A stretch of DNA of 28,552 bases, taken from positions 1 through 28,552 of the IMG/VR virus record IMGVR_UViG_3300046654_000043. The stretch is one strand, 5' to 3'. The notes beneath the pieces are model-generated. The model searched no databases and was not told where the DNA came from. It was given only the letters and a program-made list of their open reading frames with translations. The DNA comes from a virus. The translations under genes were made by a program, and so were the position numbers. This document shows, piece by piece, positions 3,963 through 18,491 of this stretch (position 1 is the first letter of the stretch; every line of letters starts with the position of its first letter).

Positions 3963-4721
3963 CTATCCGACACGAACGAAATTTGGCCGTGCCGCAGTAA
4001 CTGCTTTAACATAGGCTTCATGAGCCAGTTCCTTCGTGTCGTAGATACCGAGATGCACGGCTTTGCCCTCGATATATATTTGGGCTCTGAACCGGGCTCC
4101 GAGAGGCGACACGCCACGCAGGCCGGTCTTATTATTCGCTTTTGGGGCCTCTGAGAGCAGGTCCCGGTTATCTCGCGTCCGTCTTTCGCCAATTTTCGCA
4201 TCCGAATCGACTGATGAATGCTTAAATTCGCCATGCAATTCGTCCGAAGCTTTGCAGTATGCTGCGTATGCTTCTTCTGCGGTGTCGTATAAACCTAGAT
4301 AATAAGGTTTATAGTCCCTGTATATTTGAGCTTTAAATTTACCCTTAAATGGGGTAACGCCTTTAAAGCCTGTTTTACTATCCTGCCGAACAGAAACATT
4401 CTGTTGATTTCTCCCTGATGCTGGGCGGAGATTATCAATTCTGTTATCTGTTTTAATCGTATTCTTATGGTCAAGTTCCCCTGAAGGCCATTTACCATAA
4501 GTATAAAACCAAGCCAATCGATGGGAATAGTAGTGATAGCCATCTATGACTATTACCAAATATTTACCATCCCGTAGCGTCCCCGCCACACTACCAATTT
4601 TAGAGCAGAGGTTATTGCTAGTCGCTACCTTGTAGGTAAACAAACCCGTTTCCGGATCGTAATCAAACCTAAAGCGTAACTCTGCTTGCGTTAACCCCTG
4701 CTCTTTGTCCTTCGCCTTCAT
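3963..4721 (-). CDS. HNH homing endonuclease with two AP2 domains, 252 aa
   Basis: Free-standing mobile endonuclease. An HNH core spans about residues 20-100: the segment SHRLAWFYTYGKWPSGELDH supplies H67 and H85, and N97 lies in DNRIDNLR. Two AP2-type DNA-binding domains follow, about 117-168 (KTGFKGVTPFKGKFKAQIY) and about 198-250 (KTGLRGVSPLGARFRAQIY). HNH-AP2 proteins are known selfish endonucleases of phages that cut a specific DNA site. A clear GGAGG precedes the ATG, and a 14-bp palindrome (4730-4743) lies just upstream. The gene separates the capsid gene from the 313-aa structural gene and is more AT-rich than its neighbours, consistent with recent insertion. Two AP2 units in tandem is less common than one. 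Confidence 0.93.
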   Translation of the reverse strand: MKAKDKEQGLTQAELRFRFDYDPETGLFTYKVATSNNLCSKIGSVAGTLRDGKYLVIVIDGYHYYSHRLAWFYTYGKWPSGELDHKNTIKTDNRIDNLRPASGRNQQNVSVRQDSKTGFKGVTPFKGKFKAQIYRDYKPYYLGLYDTAEEAYAAYCKASDELHGEFKHSSVDSDAKIGERRTRDNRDLLSEAPKANNKTGLRGVSPLGARFRAQIYIEGKAVHLGIYDTKELAHEAYVKAVTAARPNFVRVG

Positions 4722-11533: not shown

Positions 11534-13660
11534 TCATATGACGCCAGGGGGTGTTGGGGCCTGTCCCTGGGCGCTTGGTTCTCCGCCGCCGGCGAATATC
11601 TGCGCGGCGAGTGGATGCGTTACAAGATGCTGGACAAGCCGCAGGTATTCAAGCTGTTTATCGCCCTCGATCTTGGCCATTTCCGTTTCCTGGCGAGCCT
11701 GAATATCCGCCATCTTCGTCTGGTTCTGCTGCGCCGCCGCCGCCACCTTGGCTTGATTGGCCTGCATCTGGGCCTGGGTCTTCATCATCTCCGGGTTCGG
11801 CTGGGGCGGCTGGTTCGGGTCGGGCTCGGGCAGAAACAGGTCGTCCGTGTCGTCAATCTGCATCATGTGCAGCACGCGGGCGGCGACCTTCCGCACATTG
11901 AACACGCCGGGCGGCGTCTGCTGGGTCACCGTCCCCAGCGCAATCGCCTTCATCAACCGGTGCGCGTGGCTCGGGGTGTTCGGGTCCGAGCGAGGCACGA
12001 GATTATAGTTGGCGAGCGCATGGATGACCGCGTCCATGGTCCATGCCGGCTGGTCGGGGTCCGGTCTGTACAGGACCTCGGGATGCTGGCGCAGGTGGTC
12101 CACGATCAGCTCAAGCTCGACGCTCTGAGCGTCGTGAAGCCGGGTGTGCACTGCGTTCAGGATTTTCCCGGCCTGCTCGATGGCGGCAAGCATCGTTCCC
12201 ACGGGGACGTCGGCCTTGCCTTCGGACGTCGGAAGCTCCGCCGTCCCGCCCAATTTCTGACCGGCGGCGGCGATGTTCTCGGTCAAGGCGATAAGGGCCT
12301 GCGACGGCTCTTTATAGGGAAGCGGTATGATCGAGTCCGCCAGCTTCACGCCGCCGGGGACGTCCACGGGGGCGCCGCCGCCGGGCGGGACGCGGAACGT
12401 GTTGTTGCTCTGCTTCGCGCCGTTCTTCGCATAGAGGAAGCCTGGGAAGTTACTGAACATCCCGGCGTCGAGAAGCAGACGCCATGCGCCGGTTAGGGCA
12501 GAGGTGGCGTTTCCGAGTATCTGCAAGAGCCCAGTGCAATAAAATCCGAAAGTCGGCGCAAATCCAAAGGGAACAAATGTACGGCGGCGAATGAAATCTT
12601 CGTCTCCTTCGTTCCAATCGCGTCTAATCTCCAATATGGCTCGGCTCGTAAGATCAATTGTAATGCGATAAGGGAGGGGAAGCCCCGTGGGCTTGCCGTC
12701 GAGGTGATGCTCAAACTCGGGTAGGTCGACATCGGCGTAGGTCTCGTAAATTGTGTGAACTTGGTCCTCGGGACGGGTCACGTTGAGGTTCACGCCCTGG
12801 GAGCGCGCCACCGCCGCGTCGAACGCGTTGATATTGGCGTCGGGGAGCTGAATCGGAATGTCCCGGTAGACGCCCAAGAGCTGCATGCGTTTAAACGTCG
12901 TGCGCTGCATCGGGGTAATGTGGGTCACGCGGGGCGCGGTCTGAATGTCCGTGGTGGTGTTGGCCACAACAAGGTGCTCGGCGTCCACCATCTCCGAGAC
13001 CGGGCGGCGCCGCATCGGGCAGAAGTACACTTTTTTAAAGGCCATCCCCGAAAATCCCACCATGAACAGCAATCTGTCGGTGCCTGGGATAAATTCGGTA
13101 GCTTTTTTAATAAGATACCAGTTGATTTCTTGTTCAAGCTTATCCGCAAGCCAGTCTTTCGGGGCGGTCTGGGAGCCGAAAACGGCGATCTTGGCCGGGC
13201 CGTTGCTCGGAATCAGCTCGCGCCGGGCGTTGGCCTGGAAGTGCAGACACGCCTCGCCCAAAAGCGGGTGACGCACCGTCGACATGCCCTCAAGAGGCGC
13301 AGAAGTGCTGGCGAGGTCGGCTCTCGGCTCCTCGACCTTGAACCCGAGCAACTTGATCCCGTTCGCGCGGGTCTGCAACCACTCGGCGAAGCTGCGCCGG
13401 TCCTCCTCGATCCCCTCGATCAGGTCGACGGCGAGGCTATTAAGCGCCGATTCATCGATAAATTCCGCCAAATTGGCGTTGTGATCGTCCGCCGCCTCTT
13501 TCGAGCTGTGATTTCGCGGGCTGAACTCAATCGTGACGCCGCCATCCGGCTCGTCGATGACAAGCGCGTCGTTCTCTTGGGCAAAATGGACACCTTGAGG
13601 ACTATGGAGCGGCTGATCGTCCATATATTTCTTAAAATCGAAGACTTGTGCGGCTGTCAT
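11534..13660 (-). CDS. Portal protein, 708 aa
   Basis: Forms the dodecameric DNA-entry ring at one head vertex. Length (708 aa) and position (between TerL and the scaffold group) match the large portals of podovirus-like phages. Recognisable stretches include DLIEGIEEDRRSFAEWLQTR (early helix), LGEACLHFQANARRELIPSN, TDRLLFMVGFSGMAFKKVYF (core), the DWNEGDEDFIRRRTFVPFGF strand region and, in the stem/clip part, GTAELPTSEGKADVPVGTML. The C-terminal 90 residues are a Gln/Ala-rich barrel-type coiled coil (TQAQMQANQAKVAAAAQQNQ). GGAG lies nine bases before the ATG. It contains a GTTTAAAC core (12888-12897). The call is firm. Confidence 0.9.
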   Translation of the reverse strand: MTAAQVFDFKKYMDDQPLHSPQGVHFAQENDALVIDEPDGGVTIEFSPRNHSSKEAADDHNANLAEFIDESALNSLAVDLIEGIEEDRRSFAEWLQTRANGIKLLGFKVEEPRADLASTSAPLEGMSTVRHPLLGEACLHFQANARRELIPSNGPAKIAVFGSQTAPKDWLADKLEQEINWYLIKKATEFIPGTDRLLFMVGFSGMAFKKVYFCPMRRRPVSEMVDAEHLVVANTTTDIQTAPRVTHITPMQRTTFKRMQLLGVYRDIPIQLPDANINAFDAAVARSQGVNLNVTRPEDQVHTIYETYADVDLPEFEHHLDGKPTGLPLPYRITIDLTSRAILEIRRDWNEGDEDFIRRRTFVPFGFAPTFGFYCTGLLQILGNATSALTGAWRLLLDAGMFSNFPGFLYAKNGAKQSNNTFRVPPGGGAPVDVPGGVKLADSIIPLPYKEPSQALIALTENIAAAGQKLGGTAELPTSEGKADVPVGTMLAAIEQAGKILNAVHTRLHDAQSVELELIVDHLRQHPEVLYRPDPDQPAWTMDAVIHALANYNLVPRSDPNTPSHAHRLMKAIALGTVTQQTPPGVFNVRKVAARVLHMMQIDDTDDLFLPEPDPNQPPQPNPEMMKTQAQMQANQAKVAAAAQQNQTKMADIQARQETEMAKIEGDKQLEYLRLVQHLVTHPLAAQIFAGGGEPSAQGQAPTPPGVI
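12888..12897. repeat. GTTTAAAC core in the portal gene
   Basis: CGTTTAAACG, read on the minus strand within codons for FKRM. Outer arms do not pair. Confidence 0.75.
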
Positions 13661-13674
13661 CGGCGATTACTCCA

Positions 13675-16317
13675 CTACATCGGGTAAAGGGGGACGGAGT
13701 CTATAAAAGCGCTGGAGTTTCCGCCTGTTTCCGGGTCGTTCGCCGCCCTGAGTTCTTCCCGGCGAGCCAACATATTCTGCTGTCGAAACCACCAGAGAGC
13801 ATAACAGGCGGAATCCGTCAAATCGACGTAACGAGCTTTTGGGAATGCCGCCATCTCGTCTTCCACCATAGTAGCCCATGGACGGTCGGGGCGGTAGATC
13901 ATACCGGCGGCCCAGATATGCTGCACCCGGTTCGCCCGGACTTCCTTATCGGCGCGGCCCGGATTGATAAACTCGATCCCGAACTTCTCTTGAAAAAGAA
14001 GACGCTGGAGTTCCTGGACCACCGATATCCCGCTGGCCTTGGCCTCGACGAGCAGACGATCCACGTGGAACCGCTTGCAGGTGTGCCCGATCCACTCGAC
14101 CAGACCCCAGACCTTCTTTTGACGCCCAAGGAACAGCTCGGGCGGCTCGCCCCACTCTTGGACGAGGTCCGGCCCGTGAAGCTGAAGCCACTTGCGCCAC
14201 GCCGCGATCAGGAAGACGCGCGGCGTCCCGTCGTCGGCATAGTTGAGCCCCCACACCGTCATCGCGCTCGGGTCGTTCTCGTCGTGGTGCGTATAGGCCG
14301 GGTCGACCGAGGCCAGGATGAAGTCAAATGGGGGGTAGCGGCCGTCTTCCGGTTCCCAGACGTTCCAGTATTCGTTCTTGAAGATACCGCCGCCGCGCGG
14401 GCTCGGCCGCTGCTGGTATTGGGCGGCAAAGGCGAACTCGCCCAGCTTCAAACATTCCTCGACAGCGGCGGGCGGGAACCGCGCGGGCCAAAAATTCTCG
14501 CCCTCCTCGGTTCGCGGATCGGACCAGCCGAGCCCGGTCACGCAATGAACCCCCTGCTCGTAGAGCATGGAGATCATGAGATGCTCGTAACCAAGCTCCT
14601 CATCGATGATCGTGCCGCTGACGTCGTCCTGATGGACGCGCTGCATAATCACGATAATCGCCGACTTGGTCATGTGGTTCAGGCGGTTAGACATGGCCTC
14701 TTTGAACCAGCGCACCGTCTCTTCCCGGATGGTCTGACTCTCGCCCTCTTTGATGTTGTGAGGATCATCACAGTTTGAAGCCAATATATATTTCTTGCCA
14801 TCAGAAACAAACATGTTATGGTTGCCTTCCACTGTCAAGCAGAAGGTTTCCATAACATGACCGTAACCCTCGACGCCGAGAACGGCCCCGAAGTCTGGAG
14901 AGAAGCCAGCGGCTTCCCTAACTACCTGATTTCCAACTATGGGCGCATCTACAGTAAGCCCCGCACCATCGCCCGCAAGGGAAGCGCCCCGGTCTATACT
15001 GACCGGAACAGGGACTCCACCGCCGCCCACACTATCGCCAGAGACGGGCGCTTCATGAACCCATCGCTCAGTAAGGGATATCCCCGCGTTACGCTGCGGC
15101 GAGATGGACAGACGCATTATGTCTTCGTCCACCAACTCATGATGCTGACATTCATTGGGGCGGTTCCTGAAGGGCAAGAGGTTCGTCACCGCAACGATAG
15201 CCGCGCGGACTGCCGTCTTTCCAATCTCGAATACGGAACTCGGGCGCAGAATATCGCGGATTGCAAAAAGAATGGGGGGTTTCGGAACGGCGCGGCGCAT
15301 CTCACTGACGCCCTCGTCCTGGAGATTTACAACCGGCCGCTCTCTGAAACTGGCGCGTCCCTTGCCGCCGAGTTTGGCGTCCATGTCTCCACGATTTCGG
15401 TTATCCGAAATGGGAAAGCCTGGAAGCATCTTGGCCTTCCTGAACGGAAAATGGTCAGGACCGGCGATAATCACCCGGCCCGACGTGGGGCCGAGAATAT
15501 CCGCCGGAATCCAACCGCGCCCCTCAACCCAGAACCTGTGATCGGGCGTACACCTGACAGAACCGCCGGTATAGTTGACCCGGACAAGGTCTGATCCCGG
15601 ATTGTGCTTCCAGCCGGTAACCGGCCGCAACTCAAGGCGGCCGGTTACCGGACTCCGGCTCCAAACGCGAACGTTTAAACGCTCCCGAACAATGCGACCG
15701 ATAGCAATAGGCCCGCTCTCGGTCGCAACAAGCGTCTCTTCCGGGAAACAAAGAACCCGATCGGCGCGTTCGCCGGTGCCGGTGCCTCGGACCGAAGAGG
15801 CGAATTTCCAACCAAACTTGTTGTTGGAAATCTTTGTCACGCCCTTCTGGCGCATCGTGAACAGATGACCCCAGAGGTCCTGAAACTTCTGGCTCTCGAT
15901 CAGGTCGAGCATCCGCTGATTGTCGCGCTCAGTCAGCAGGGAGGAATACGAGAACGCGATATAGCGCATGCCCGGCTTACCGCAGGCGCTCCACTCCCAG
16001 GCGGGCCAAAAAACGTTTAATAACAAAGACTTCATTGATCCTGGGGGAACGTTTATGAGGAGGCGATTGATAGCTCCGTAGGTCACCGCCTCCAGGTGCA
16101 TGGCCATCGCTTCGAGCGGCCAGCCCTCCACAAACTCCCGGCCGGGCTCGATGGTGTCCCAAAAATATCTGACGAACTCCAGCAACCCGCCGGGGCGGGC
16201 CTGCTTCTCCCGCTCGACGCGCATTCTGAACTCGTGTAACGCCGACGCCAGCAACTCGTGCGTCGTGCGCGGGTCGCCGGTTTTCGCCAGGAGCTGCTGA
16301 AGATCGTGCTCAGCCAT
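13675..16317 (-). CDS. Terminase large subunit interrupted by an intein, 880 aa precursor
   Basis: DNA-packaging motor and nuclease. The ATPase part has Walker A at about 90-97 (VPPGSMKS) and Walker B ADRVL|CDDPHN, which is split by the intein between L189 and C516. The motor continues with KSAIIVIMQRVHQDDVSGTI (coupling region). The nuclease part has acidic residues D672 (LASVDPAY), E758 (LLVEAKASG) and D832/D835 (YVDLTDSACYALWW). Without the 326-residue intein the mature protein would be 554 aa, the usual TerL length. The gene starts four bases after the TerS stop and is followed by the portal gene. Packaging needs splicing because Walker B is rebuilt only after intein removal. Confidence 0.95.
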   Translation of the reverse strand: MAEHDLQQLLAKTGDPRTTHELLASALHEFRMRVEREKQARPGGLLEFVRYFWDTIEPGREFVEGWPLEAMAMHLEAVTYGAINRLLINVPPGSMKSLLLNVFWPAWEWSACGKPGMRYIAFSYSSLLTERDNQRMLDLIESQKFQDLWGHLFTMRQKGVTKISNNKFGWKFASSVRGTGTGERADRVLCFPEETLVATESGPIAIGRIVRERLNVRVWSRSPVTGRLELRPVTGWKHNPGSDLVRVNYTGGSVRCTPDHRFWVEGRGWIPADILGPTSGRVIIAGPDHFPFRKAKMLPGFPISDNRNRGDMDAKLGGKGRASFRERPVVNLQDEGVSEMRRAVPKPPILFAIRDILRPSSVFEIGKTAVRAAIVAVTNLLPFRNRPNECQHHELVDEDIMRLSISPQRNAGISLTERWVHEAPVSGDSVGGGGVPVPVSIDRGASLAGDGAGLTVDAPIVGNQVVREAAGFSPDFGAVLGVEGYGHVMETFCLTVEGNHNMFVSDGKKYILASNCDDPHNIKEGESQTIREETVRWFKEAMSNRLNHMTKSAIIVIMQRVHQDDVSGTIIDEELGYEHLMISMLYEQGVHCVTGLGWSDPRTEEGENFWPARFPPAAVEECLKLGEFAFAAQYQQRPSPRGGGIFKNEYWNVWEPEDGRYPPFDFILASVDPAYTHHDENDPSAMTVWGLNYADDGTPRVFLIAAWRKWLQLHGPDLVQEWGEPPELFLGRQKKVWGLVEWIGHTCKRFHVDRLLVEAKASGISVVQELQRLLFQEKFGIEFINPGRADKEVRANRVQHIWAAGMIYRPDRPWATMVEDEMAAFPKARYVDLTDSACYALWWFRQQNMLARREELRAANDPETGGNSSAFIDSVPLYPM
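14857..15594 (+). CDS. NUMOD4-HNH homing endonuclease encoded antisense inside the intein, 245 aa
   Basis: A NUMOD4 domain is clear at about 10-45 (PEVWREASGFPNYLISNYGR). An HNH core spans about 88-135, with H92 in YVFVHQLMMLTF, H111/N113 in QEVRHRND and N123 in RLSNLEYGTRAQN. A helix-turn-helix follows at about 148-192 (DALVLEIYNR, FGVHVSTISVIRNGKAWKHL). The ATG at 14857 has AGAAGG ten bases upstream; a longer start at 14818 has none. The gene lies wholly within the intein coding sequence on the other strand, with codons exactly opposite intein codons. Its last 40 residues, past the HTH, lie opposite the intein block B region and match no domain, suggesting read-through extension after insertion. 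Probably the mobility enzyme of the intein. Confidence 0.9.
   Translation: MTVTLDAENGPEVWREASGFPNYLISNYGRIYSKPRTIARKGSAPVYTDRNRDSTAAHTIARDGRFMNPSLSKGYPRVTLRRDGQTHYVFVHQLMMLTFIGAVPEGQEVRHRNDSRADCRLSNLEYGTRAQNIADCKKNGGFRNGAAHLTDALVLEIYNRPLSETGASLAAEFGVHVSTISVIRNGKAWKHLGLPERKMVRTGDNHPARRGAENIRRNPTAPLNPEPVIGRTPDRTAGIVDPDKV
15672..15681. repeat. GTTTAAAC core in the intein
   Basis: CGTTTAAACG, in the N-terminal splicing domain (codons for RLNV), just outside the antisense HNH gene. Flanking bases give no longer palindrome. Confidence 0.75.
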
Positions 16318-16320
16318 GGG

Positions 16321-17049
16321 TCACCGTTTCTTGACAGGGGCTTGGTGGCCGCCCTTTGGCGGGAACGCGAAATCCGCGTCCTGGTGATGCTCCGCCTCGA
16401 TCTGGCGCGGCGCCGTGGGCGCGGCGTTCGCCGTCACCTCGACAATGGGGCCGATCTCGCTGTGGACTTTTGAAATGAACTGAAGCAGTTCTTCGTTGCT
16501 CATCCGGGAGATAGACCCCTGAACCGTGATCTCCGCCTTGTCGATCAAGAGACCGTGCAGCTTGGCGAGGCCCATGGTGGCCTGGACCGCCGCGCGGGCG
16601 TCGGACCGCCAGTCCGATCCCTTCGTGTGATCCTTGATCTGCTCGGCTCCAGGAAGAGCGAGTTCGCCGGTCCTGGCGAAATGCCGGTCTTCGAGAAGCA
16701 TCAGCGTCAACCGCTCGATGTTCATCGCGTATTTGTCGGTCATGGCCAGCCGCTGGGCGTTGACCGAAGCCGTCTGCTCCGCCTGAAGCTCGTCTATGCG
16801 TTTCTTGACGGCCGGGCGGTTGGCGAGGCAAATCGCGGCGCGGCGATAACGGCGTGTGAGCTGGTCCTTGGTTTCGCATGTCGCTTCGTTGACCGAGTCA
16901 TAACCCGCCTCCTTATAGGCTTTGACATAATCCCAGCCGCGCACATAGTTCTGGCAGAACTGCTCCTGCTTGGGGTTTATGCCGGTTTTGGGGTCCTTGC
17001 GCCCATATGGGGAGGGCGCCTTCTTTGTCCCCTTGACGCCGCCGGCCAT
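16321..17049 (-). CDS. Terminase small subunit, 242 aa
   Basis: DNA-recognition subunit of the packaging motor, encoded directly before TerL. The N-terminal part has the Terminase_2-type helix-turn-helix pattern NPKQEQFCQNYVRGWDYVKA followed by YKEAGYDS, and a second helix RRAAICLANRPAVKKRIDEL. The middle (about 135-190) is an alpha-helical oligomerisation region and the C-terminus is basic (PKGGHQAPVKKR), fitting TerL or DNA contact. The ATG overlaps the stop of the 156-aa gene (TGATG), so translation is coupled. The call is firm from position plus pattern. Confidence 0.88.
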   Translation of the reverse strand: MAGGVKGTKKAPSPYGRKDPKTGINPKQEQFCQNYVRGWDYVKAYKEAGYDSVNEATCETKDQLTRRYRRAAICLANRPAVKKRIDELQAEQTASVNAQRLAMTDKYAMNIERLTLMLLEDRHFARTGELALPGAEQIKDHTKGSDWRSDARAAVQATMGLAKLHGLLIDKAEITVQGSISRMSNEELLQFISKVHSEIGPIVEVTANAAPTAPRQIEAEHHQDADFAFPPKGGHQAPVKKR

Positions 17050-17888: not shown

Positions 17889-18491
17889 TTATCGGTTCAA
17901 GATGGGCCATAGGAACCGATTACCCTTCAATTTCGGCTCTGGCGCTTTCTTCCCGGTGCGCTGCTCGCGCTCGGCGTAATAGCGAAGCTGATCGACGTGA
18001 ACGCGCAAGTTTCTCCGCTGCTCGGATTGTGTCGCCCAGCGGACGTTGCCCGGCGCATAGTCGCCGAAGGGGTCGATCCGATCCACCGTATGGAGCGAGG
18101 TCGGCGGCTCGCCGATATAGTCGTAGAAGGCTTGGAAGTCATTGCGCCAGACGTCGGCTACTTTGACGCCGAGCGCGCCATGATAGCGGTACGACTTCTC
18201 GGCCTTCTCGTTGTAGCAGCGGGTCTTCATCGCCAGCCAGCGACGGTAAACCAGGGACCGGCTTCTGCCATGCTTCGTTATAACCGTCTCAATGACGACT
18301 TTCGATGAGCATTTACGACAGGATTTCGAACGTCCGGACGTTAAGTTATATGATTCTACTTTCTTTTCTACGCCGCAGGTGCAAACGCAGTTCCAATATT
18401 GCTTGTTGGAGTTGTTGGCGTGGGAGAAGCCAAGCACGCGCCATTCGTGGAACGTGTGGCCGGTCAGCTCGCGCTGTCTGGTAATTCGCAT
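17889..18491 (-). CDS. Zn-binding HNH-like endonuclease of the DRID type, 200 aa
   Basis: The N-terminal part starts LTGHTFHEWRVLGFSHANN and carries a Cys cluster CVCTCG (C35, C37, C39) with SCRKC (C58, C61), the layout of phage 'LTG-F--L-V' zinc-binding proteins. The C-terminal part has YRRWLAMKTRCYNEKAEKSY, VWRNDFQAFYDYIGEPP and the signature VDRIDPFGDYAPGNVRWATQ. This is a known phage homing-endonuclease-like family (HNH/His-Me type), although catalytic residues are less certain than in the other two. AT-rich inverted repeats lie on both sides (17820-17850, 18633-18656). Probably selfish and inserted upstream of the terminase genes. Confidence 0.83.
   Translation of the reverse strand: MRITRQRELTGHTFHEWRVLGFSHANNSNKQYWNCVCTCGVEKKVESYNLTSGRSKSCRKCSSKVVIETVITKHGRSRSLVYRRWLAMKTRCYNEKAEKSYRYHGALGVKVADVWRNDFQAFYDYIGEPPTSLHTVDRIDPFGDYAPGNVRWATQSEQRRNLRVHVDQLRYYAEREQRTGKKAPEPKLKGNRFLWPILNR

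Follow-up and report, generated by a model that had tools for sequence, protein, structure and literature searches.

A phage terminase intein with an HNH homing-endonuclease-like gene nested on the opposite strand

Results

In the virus studied here, the gene for the large terminase subunit (terL) is interrupted by an intein, and a complete NUMOD4-HNH-HTH gene lies within that intein on the opposite strand, with both reading frames under separate purifying selection, in complementary stretches. This architecture and the dual selection are documented below. We hold it probable (about 0.86) that the insert is a mobile intein in which the same DNA holds two separate genes, one of which would splice while the other, expressed on its own, would cut and promote homing, the whole having arisen by gene capture. 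The window, that is the whole stretch analysed, is a 28,552-bp IMG/VR virus record; the features concerned are as follows.

Minus strand
16321-17049: TerS
13675-16317: terL precursor gene, N-extein, intein and C-extein, 880 aa (open reading frame and profiles)
15751-16317: TerL N-extein, ending ...ERADRVL ahead of the Walker-B residues
14773-15750: intein of 326 aa, from C1 to N326; the C-extein then begins with C+1
15442-15750: Hint N-part, intein aa 1-103, block A C1 and block B TPDH (AF2 pLDDT about 93, dN/dS about 0.1-0.2)
14905-15441: intein linker, aa 104-282, the antisense translation of HNH aa 17-195 (pLDDT about 26, no family match)
14773-14904: Hint C-part, intein aa 283-326, with Cys304, block F NHN and N326
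13675-14772: TerL C-extein, opening CDDPHN (Walker B), stop included
11534-13660: portal

Plus strand
14795-14822: weak promoter-like TTGCCA-16-TATGGT upstream of the HNH start, its -10 on conserved block F codons
14841-14846: Shine-Dalgarno-like AGAAGG, 10 nt ahead of the HNH ATG
14857-15594: nested HNH homing-endonuclease-like gene, 245 codons plus stop (ATG at 14857, stop ending at 15594)
14890-15099: NUMOD4 motif, HNH aa 12-81 (Pfam)
15124-15252: HNH_3 catalytic domain, aa 90-132, with H92, H111, N123 and N132 (Pfam)
15307-15411: helix-turn-helix DNA-binding module, aa 151-185 (predicted helices)
15460-15591: passive C-terminal tail of the HNH frame, aa 202-245, antisense to Hint-N (pLDDT about 43, substitution pattern flips)

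The TerL intein

The 880-aa protein matched the terminase large subunit family PHROG 38 (E 5e-72) and is split at Walker B, between ...ERADRVL and CDDPHN..., a conserved motif of an essential protein that carries the insertion in every allele. Splicing blocks had been predicted at C190, TPDH, the NHN of block F and N515/C516; they proved correct, and two NCBIfam models exceeded their cut-offs, intein_Nterm with 32.1 bits against 24.5 (TerL aa 190-263) and intein_Cterm with 19.0 against 15.6 (aa 490-507). C1, T68, H71, N326 and C+1, the residues of a class 1 intein, were invariant in 17 aligned inteins, and from its sequence the minus-strand insert is best described as class-1-like. Cys304 (block F position 4, FCLTV; alignment A3) was invariant along with C1 and C+1; class 3 inteins characteristically have a Cys in this place, and the TerL inteins here retain C1. 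The penultimate residue is Ser, as in NpuDnaE. After block B, the window reads IPADILGPTSG where its relatives read VEARLLKAGDV, so that splicing of this particular copy could be weakened.

A conventional large intein would carry its nuclease in frame. Here, as anticipated, the middle of the intein gave no Pfam nuclease match; it lacked any family match, had dN/dS of 1 or more in most pairs and was predicted to be disordered.

The nested HNH gene

On the plus strand, the 245-aa protein passed the Pfam cut-offs for HNH_3 (43 bits) and NUMOD4 (41 bits), and matched the HNH family PHROG 59 (E 8e-42). With NUMOD4, an HNH domain with catalytic His and Asn residues and a helix-turn-helix, it has the domains of an I-HmuI-type homing endonuclease; H111, N123 and N132 were invariant in 17 HNH sequences, and H92 was displaced by one residue in two of them. 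The original prediction of a full NUMOD4-HNH-HTH gene with its own AGAAGG-ATG start was thus upheld, and the profile signals on which it had been staked, HNH/NUMOD4 in the plus frame and Hint in the minus frame, were both present. The gene lies wholly within the intein. As had also been claimed, the codons of the two genes are exactly aligned, because both frames stand at coordinate 1 modulo 3; intein residue i opposes HNH residue 299-i.

Shine-Dalgarno-like equivalents precede most of the nested HNH starts found in other phages. The promoter-like site scored 8.5 versus 5.8, a score that we dropped as evidence because its -10 sits on conserved block F codons, of which the site could be a by-product. 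Expression of the splicing domain and the nuclease at different times, as first proposed, is plausible from the promoter-like and ribosome-binding-like sites. About 20 nt beyond the HNH stop, within Hint-N codons, positions 15614-15651 form a strong GC-rich inverted repeat (GCCGGTAACCGGCCGC / GCGGCCGGTTACCGG) with no T-run, which could affect the end of a plus-strand transcript. The window has two further HNH genes, both on the minus strand: one for an HNH-AP2 protein (3963-4721), among the genes downstream of portal, and one near the small terminase gene (17889-18491, PHROG 374).

Predicted structures

AlphaFold, run on the 17-sequence intein alignment, placed aa 1-103 plus 283-327 confidently in a Hint fold, and gave a pLDDT of about 26 for aa 104-282. 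The top Foldseek match of this model was the splicing domain of the Mtu RecA intein (3e-6). For the HNH protein, the NUMOD4, HNH and HTH parts were predicted with confidence, with a weaker loop near aa 41-60 and a disordered tail at aa 202-245. Its top Foldseek match was I-HmuI (8.7e-7), a match that came from the fold search, the sequence search of the PDB having returned none. By the pairing of intein residue i with HNH residue 299-i, what is disordered in one protein lies almost exactly antisense to what is folded in the other.

Purifying selection on both frames

A 376-aa antisense frame (13648-14778) adjoins the nested gene in the same phase, and such frames are common in this GC-rich genome, so that an open antisense frame alone is weak evidence. 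We consider the nested gene real because of the profile matches, its recurrence in 22 loci and the selection tests that follow.

Pairwise dN/dS was calculated by the Nei-Gojobori method in both frames across homologues, as the original prediction had proposed. For codons of the HNH core, it was 0.07-0.22 in the HNH frame and about 1.2-1.6 when read as intein, in most pairs. Hint codons gave about 0.1-0.2 when read as intein and about 1.1 on the antisense strand. A few divergent pairs were saturated or out of range, and these values are therefore indicative rather than tests of adaptive evolution. In the HNH core, the third position of HNH codons was the most variable, and the reverse held for the tail, which is antisense to Hint-N.

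The codons TTA, CTA and TCA in the HNH gene are stops in the intein frame. None was found in the nested HNH genes of 18 loci, where extein codon usage predicts 80, nor in four further nested loci (30 expected); as the loci are related and hence non-independent, no exact pooled p is given. In L125, a contig of 29% GC, there were again none versus 16.6 expected (p 4e-13). The intein frame is thus protected from stops. Free-standing HNH relatives use these codons freely when AT-rich.

Recurrence in other phages

With tblastn and local HMM screens, the same antisense layout, whose search in other phage terminases had been suggested, was found in at least 22 distinct loci, with phase and TerL Walker-B site identical throughout, down to about 25-30% HNH identity. 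Besides the window, they include the IMG/VR contigs L004, L005, L006, L007, L011, L012, L026, L101, L102, L104, L107, L109, L112, L113, L115, L155, L166, L172 and L196, the Clostridia genome contig L125 and the isolated E. coli phage BUCT618 (L094). AT-rich Clostridia-type phages are among the carriers. In 18 tabulated loci, the HNH start lay 78-96 nt from the C-end of the intein and the stop 159-261 nt from its N-end. Wherever an HNH gene stood between opposite-strand Hint halves, the intein frame was unbroken; likewise, the plus frame was never broken where the intein was kept, the outcome on which the original prediction depended.

Among 127 further NUMOD4-HNH loci, some fetched twice, none had an antisense HNH in a host gene other than TerL, and a scan of genome contigs for nested HNH genes returned L125 as the sole case. 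In BUCT618 (OM735461.1), the antisense HNH of the TerL intein (L094:1314-1982, minus) is without GenBank annotation; no close relative of its terL was present in 5,426 E. coli genomes. Candidates in phages RHph_N65, EBPR siphovirus 3, Mae-Yong1326-1 and Poludnitsa were discarded, their HNH genes having turned out to be free-standing.

Distribution and probable origin

The antisense-intein state, mapped on a tree of 103 TerLs, requires nine or more changes, six of them forced by supported branches. This patchy tree was used in place of Hint versus extein identity, which as proof of transfer is confounded by different rates. Between the window and L004, the exteins are 97-100% identical and both frames are intact, while the HTH end of the HNH differs. 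As read from the sequences, this segment difference alters the DNA-recognition module; one HTH is present in the window and two in L004-L006. A single clade of nested HNH proteins was rejected (AU p 0.003), so that several captures or exchanges are possible.

Some close free-standing relatives of the nested HNH proteins adjoin intein-less terL genes (L110:3995-4594, L114, L116, L171, L103), mostly in divergent orientation and less than 100 nt from the 5' end. The divergent arrangement at the 5' end was seen in L110, L114 and L116, and L103 has its HNH gene convergent at the 3' end. These observations suggest that a resident mini-intein captured free-standing homing genes adjacent to terL. The most likely origin is that a mini-intein took in a free-standing HNH homing gene in reverse, its own frame being kept open.

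A sense +1 layout at the same site

In five contigs (L029:5593-6606, L057:4414-5442, L127:2902-3933, L129:3863-4900 and L130:1177-2055, all plus), the TerL Walker-B intein contains a Zn-finger HNH gene on the same strand, in the +1 frame. It matched PHROG 1271 (E 3e-22 for L029, 3e-26 for L057). In the comparison of L057 with L127, the HNH frame had a dN/dS of 0.16 and the in-frame intein middle one of 1.09; by this one pair, the middle appears to be an unselected shadow. These inteins resemble that of the window in their TerL site, the kept Hint domain, the out-of-frame nuclease and, for that one pair, the dN/dS split; they differ in strand, frame and HNH family. As both the antisense and the +1 layouts occur there, out-of-frame homing genes are a recurrent solution at the Walker-B site. 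The recurrence of the antisense layout as a family, the +1 layout at the same site, and the recognition of the last 44 or so HNH codons as a passive tail antisense to Hint all go beyond the original prediction.

By eye, the Walker-A TerL inteins (L017, L036, L089 and the first of L107) look conventional, with in-frame nuclease-like middles. In L107 (2801-6553, minus), a single TerL carries two inteins, one with an in-frame nuclease-like middle at Walker A and one with an antisense HNH at Walker B. In L018 (110-2653, minus), an NrdJ-like ribonucleotide reductase holds, also by eye, an intein of the conventional kind with its HNH in frame.

Discussion

In the mechanism that we propose, the minus-strand TerL precursor would be translated straight through the insert, the two Hint halves (aa 1-103 and 283-326) would co-fold, release the intein and join the two exteins of TerL across the Walker-B motif, and the middle of about 180 aa would be a meaningless, disordered antisense translation tolerated by the Hint domain. 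The plus strand of this linker would give, from its own start, a free I-HmuI-type NUMOD4-HNH-HTH endonuclease. This enzyme would cut or nick intein-less terL alleles, and repair would then copy the insert in.

HNH proteins of the HK97 gp74 type work with terminase, and the nested protein might be a packaging or regulatory nuclease of this kind, domesticated inside the intein rather than acting in homing. The confinement of nested HNH genes to terL and the position of free-standing relatives next to terL fit such a role. We nevertheless judge it improbable, in view of the NUMOD4 and HTH DNA-binding modules, the I-HmuI fold match, the patchy distribution among TerLs, with many phages without the HNH having an uninterrupted TerL, and the HTH-end segment that differs between near-identical phages. 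Slightly less probable still is that the gene is a relic, once active and now a spacer retained since its deletion would disturb the intein. Homing enzymes often decay after fixation, and the single HTH of the window, where L004-L006 have two, might be read as a sign of such decay; yet dN/dS in the HNH frame is about 0.1-0.2, catalytic residues are retained, and not one of the at least 22 loci has a broken copy.

It is very unlikely that an antisense homing gene sits here in an RNA intron instead of an intein. Such genes do exist in nuclear group I introns (PMC9548176), but Rfam returned no intron match here, the protein frame is open across the insert in all cases, and Hint profiles, Hint fold and splice residues are present. 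Finally, long antisense frames in the same phase, such as 13648-14778, are common in this genome, and a chance frame of a GC-rich gene might come to resemble an HNH protein. This explanation is refuted by two Pfam domains past their cut-offs, by the I-HmuI fold match and by further cases in contigs with 29-39% GC, whose antisense frames would be expected to abound in stops. A mobile intein of two separate genes remains our preferred reading.

The nearest published case that we found is the methylase insert of ShiLan, described in 2025, a same-strand, out-of-frame HNH with no splicing domain (PMC11855218). As in the window, an HNH is concealed in another frame of an insertion that is open in the host frame, the distribution is patchy, and the host-frame translation is poorly structured by prediction. 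In ShiLan, however, the HNH lies on the same strand in the third frame and is flanked by zinc fingers, whereas in the window it is antisense, has its own ribosome-binding-like site and lies within a recognisable intein with a Hint domain. I-DsqI and Dir.S956-2 are likewise antisense to the host gene within a self-splicing element (PMC9548176); being in RNA introns, they do not need the insert to be translated, while in the window the protein frame on the opposite strand has to remain open. With the I-HmuI / NUMOD4-HNH family (1u3e) the nested protein shares the NUMOD, HNH and HTH architecture and the predicted fold, but known members are intron-encoded or free-standing, and none lies within an intein as far as we found. 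The literature searched held no antisense endonuclease in an intein; priority is uncertain, since a 2025 preprint on non-canonical actinobacteriophage inteins may overlap.

On balance, we lean towards the view that inteins can carry a homing enzyme in a second, overlooked manner, through an overlapping gene with expression of its own, either antisense (NUMOD4-HNH) or sense +1 (Zn-finger HNH), the intein linker then being a translated, meaningless shadow. It would have arisen more than once at the TerL site by capture of terL-adjacent free-standing genes, uncoupling the timing of the nuclease from synthesis of the host protein. This offers a testable path from a free-standing homing gene to an intein-borne one. 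The case is also a clear long antisense overlap, in which the folded part of each protein faces the disordered part of the other, with codon-level support for both. Annotation pipelines miss such nucleases, as in BUCT618, and natural inteins that apparently tolerate arbitrary linkers of about 180 aa should be useful for protein engineering.

In textbook large inteins, the splicing and homing domains are fused in one polypeptide, and so are co-expressed and co-evolve. In those with an in-frame endonuclease (PI-SceI; the Walker-A inteins of L017, L036 and L089; L018), Hint is likewise split by the endonuclease coding sequence, but the nuclease forms part of the intein polypeptide as one of its domains; in the window it is a separate antisense gene, and the splicing and homing functions share the same DNA, yet belong to separate genes on opposite strands.
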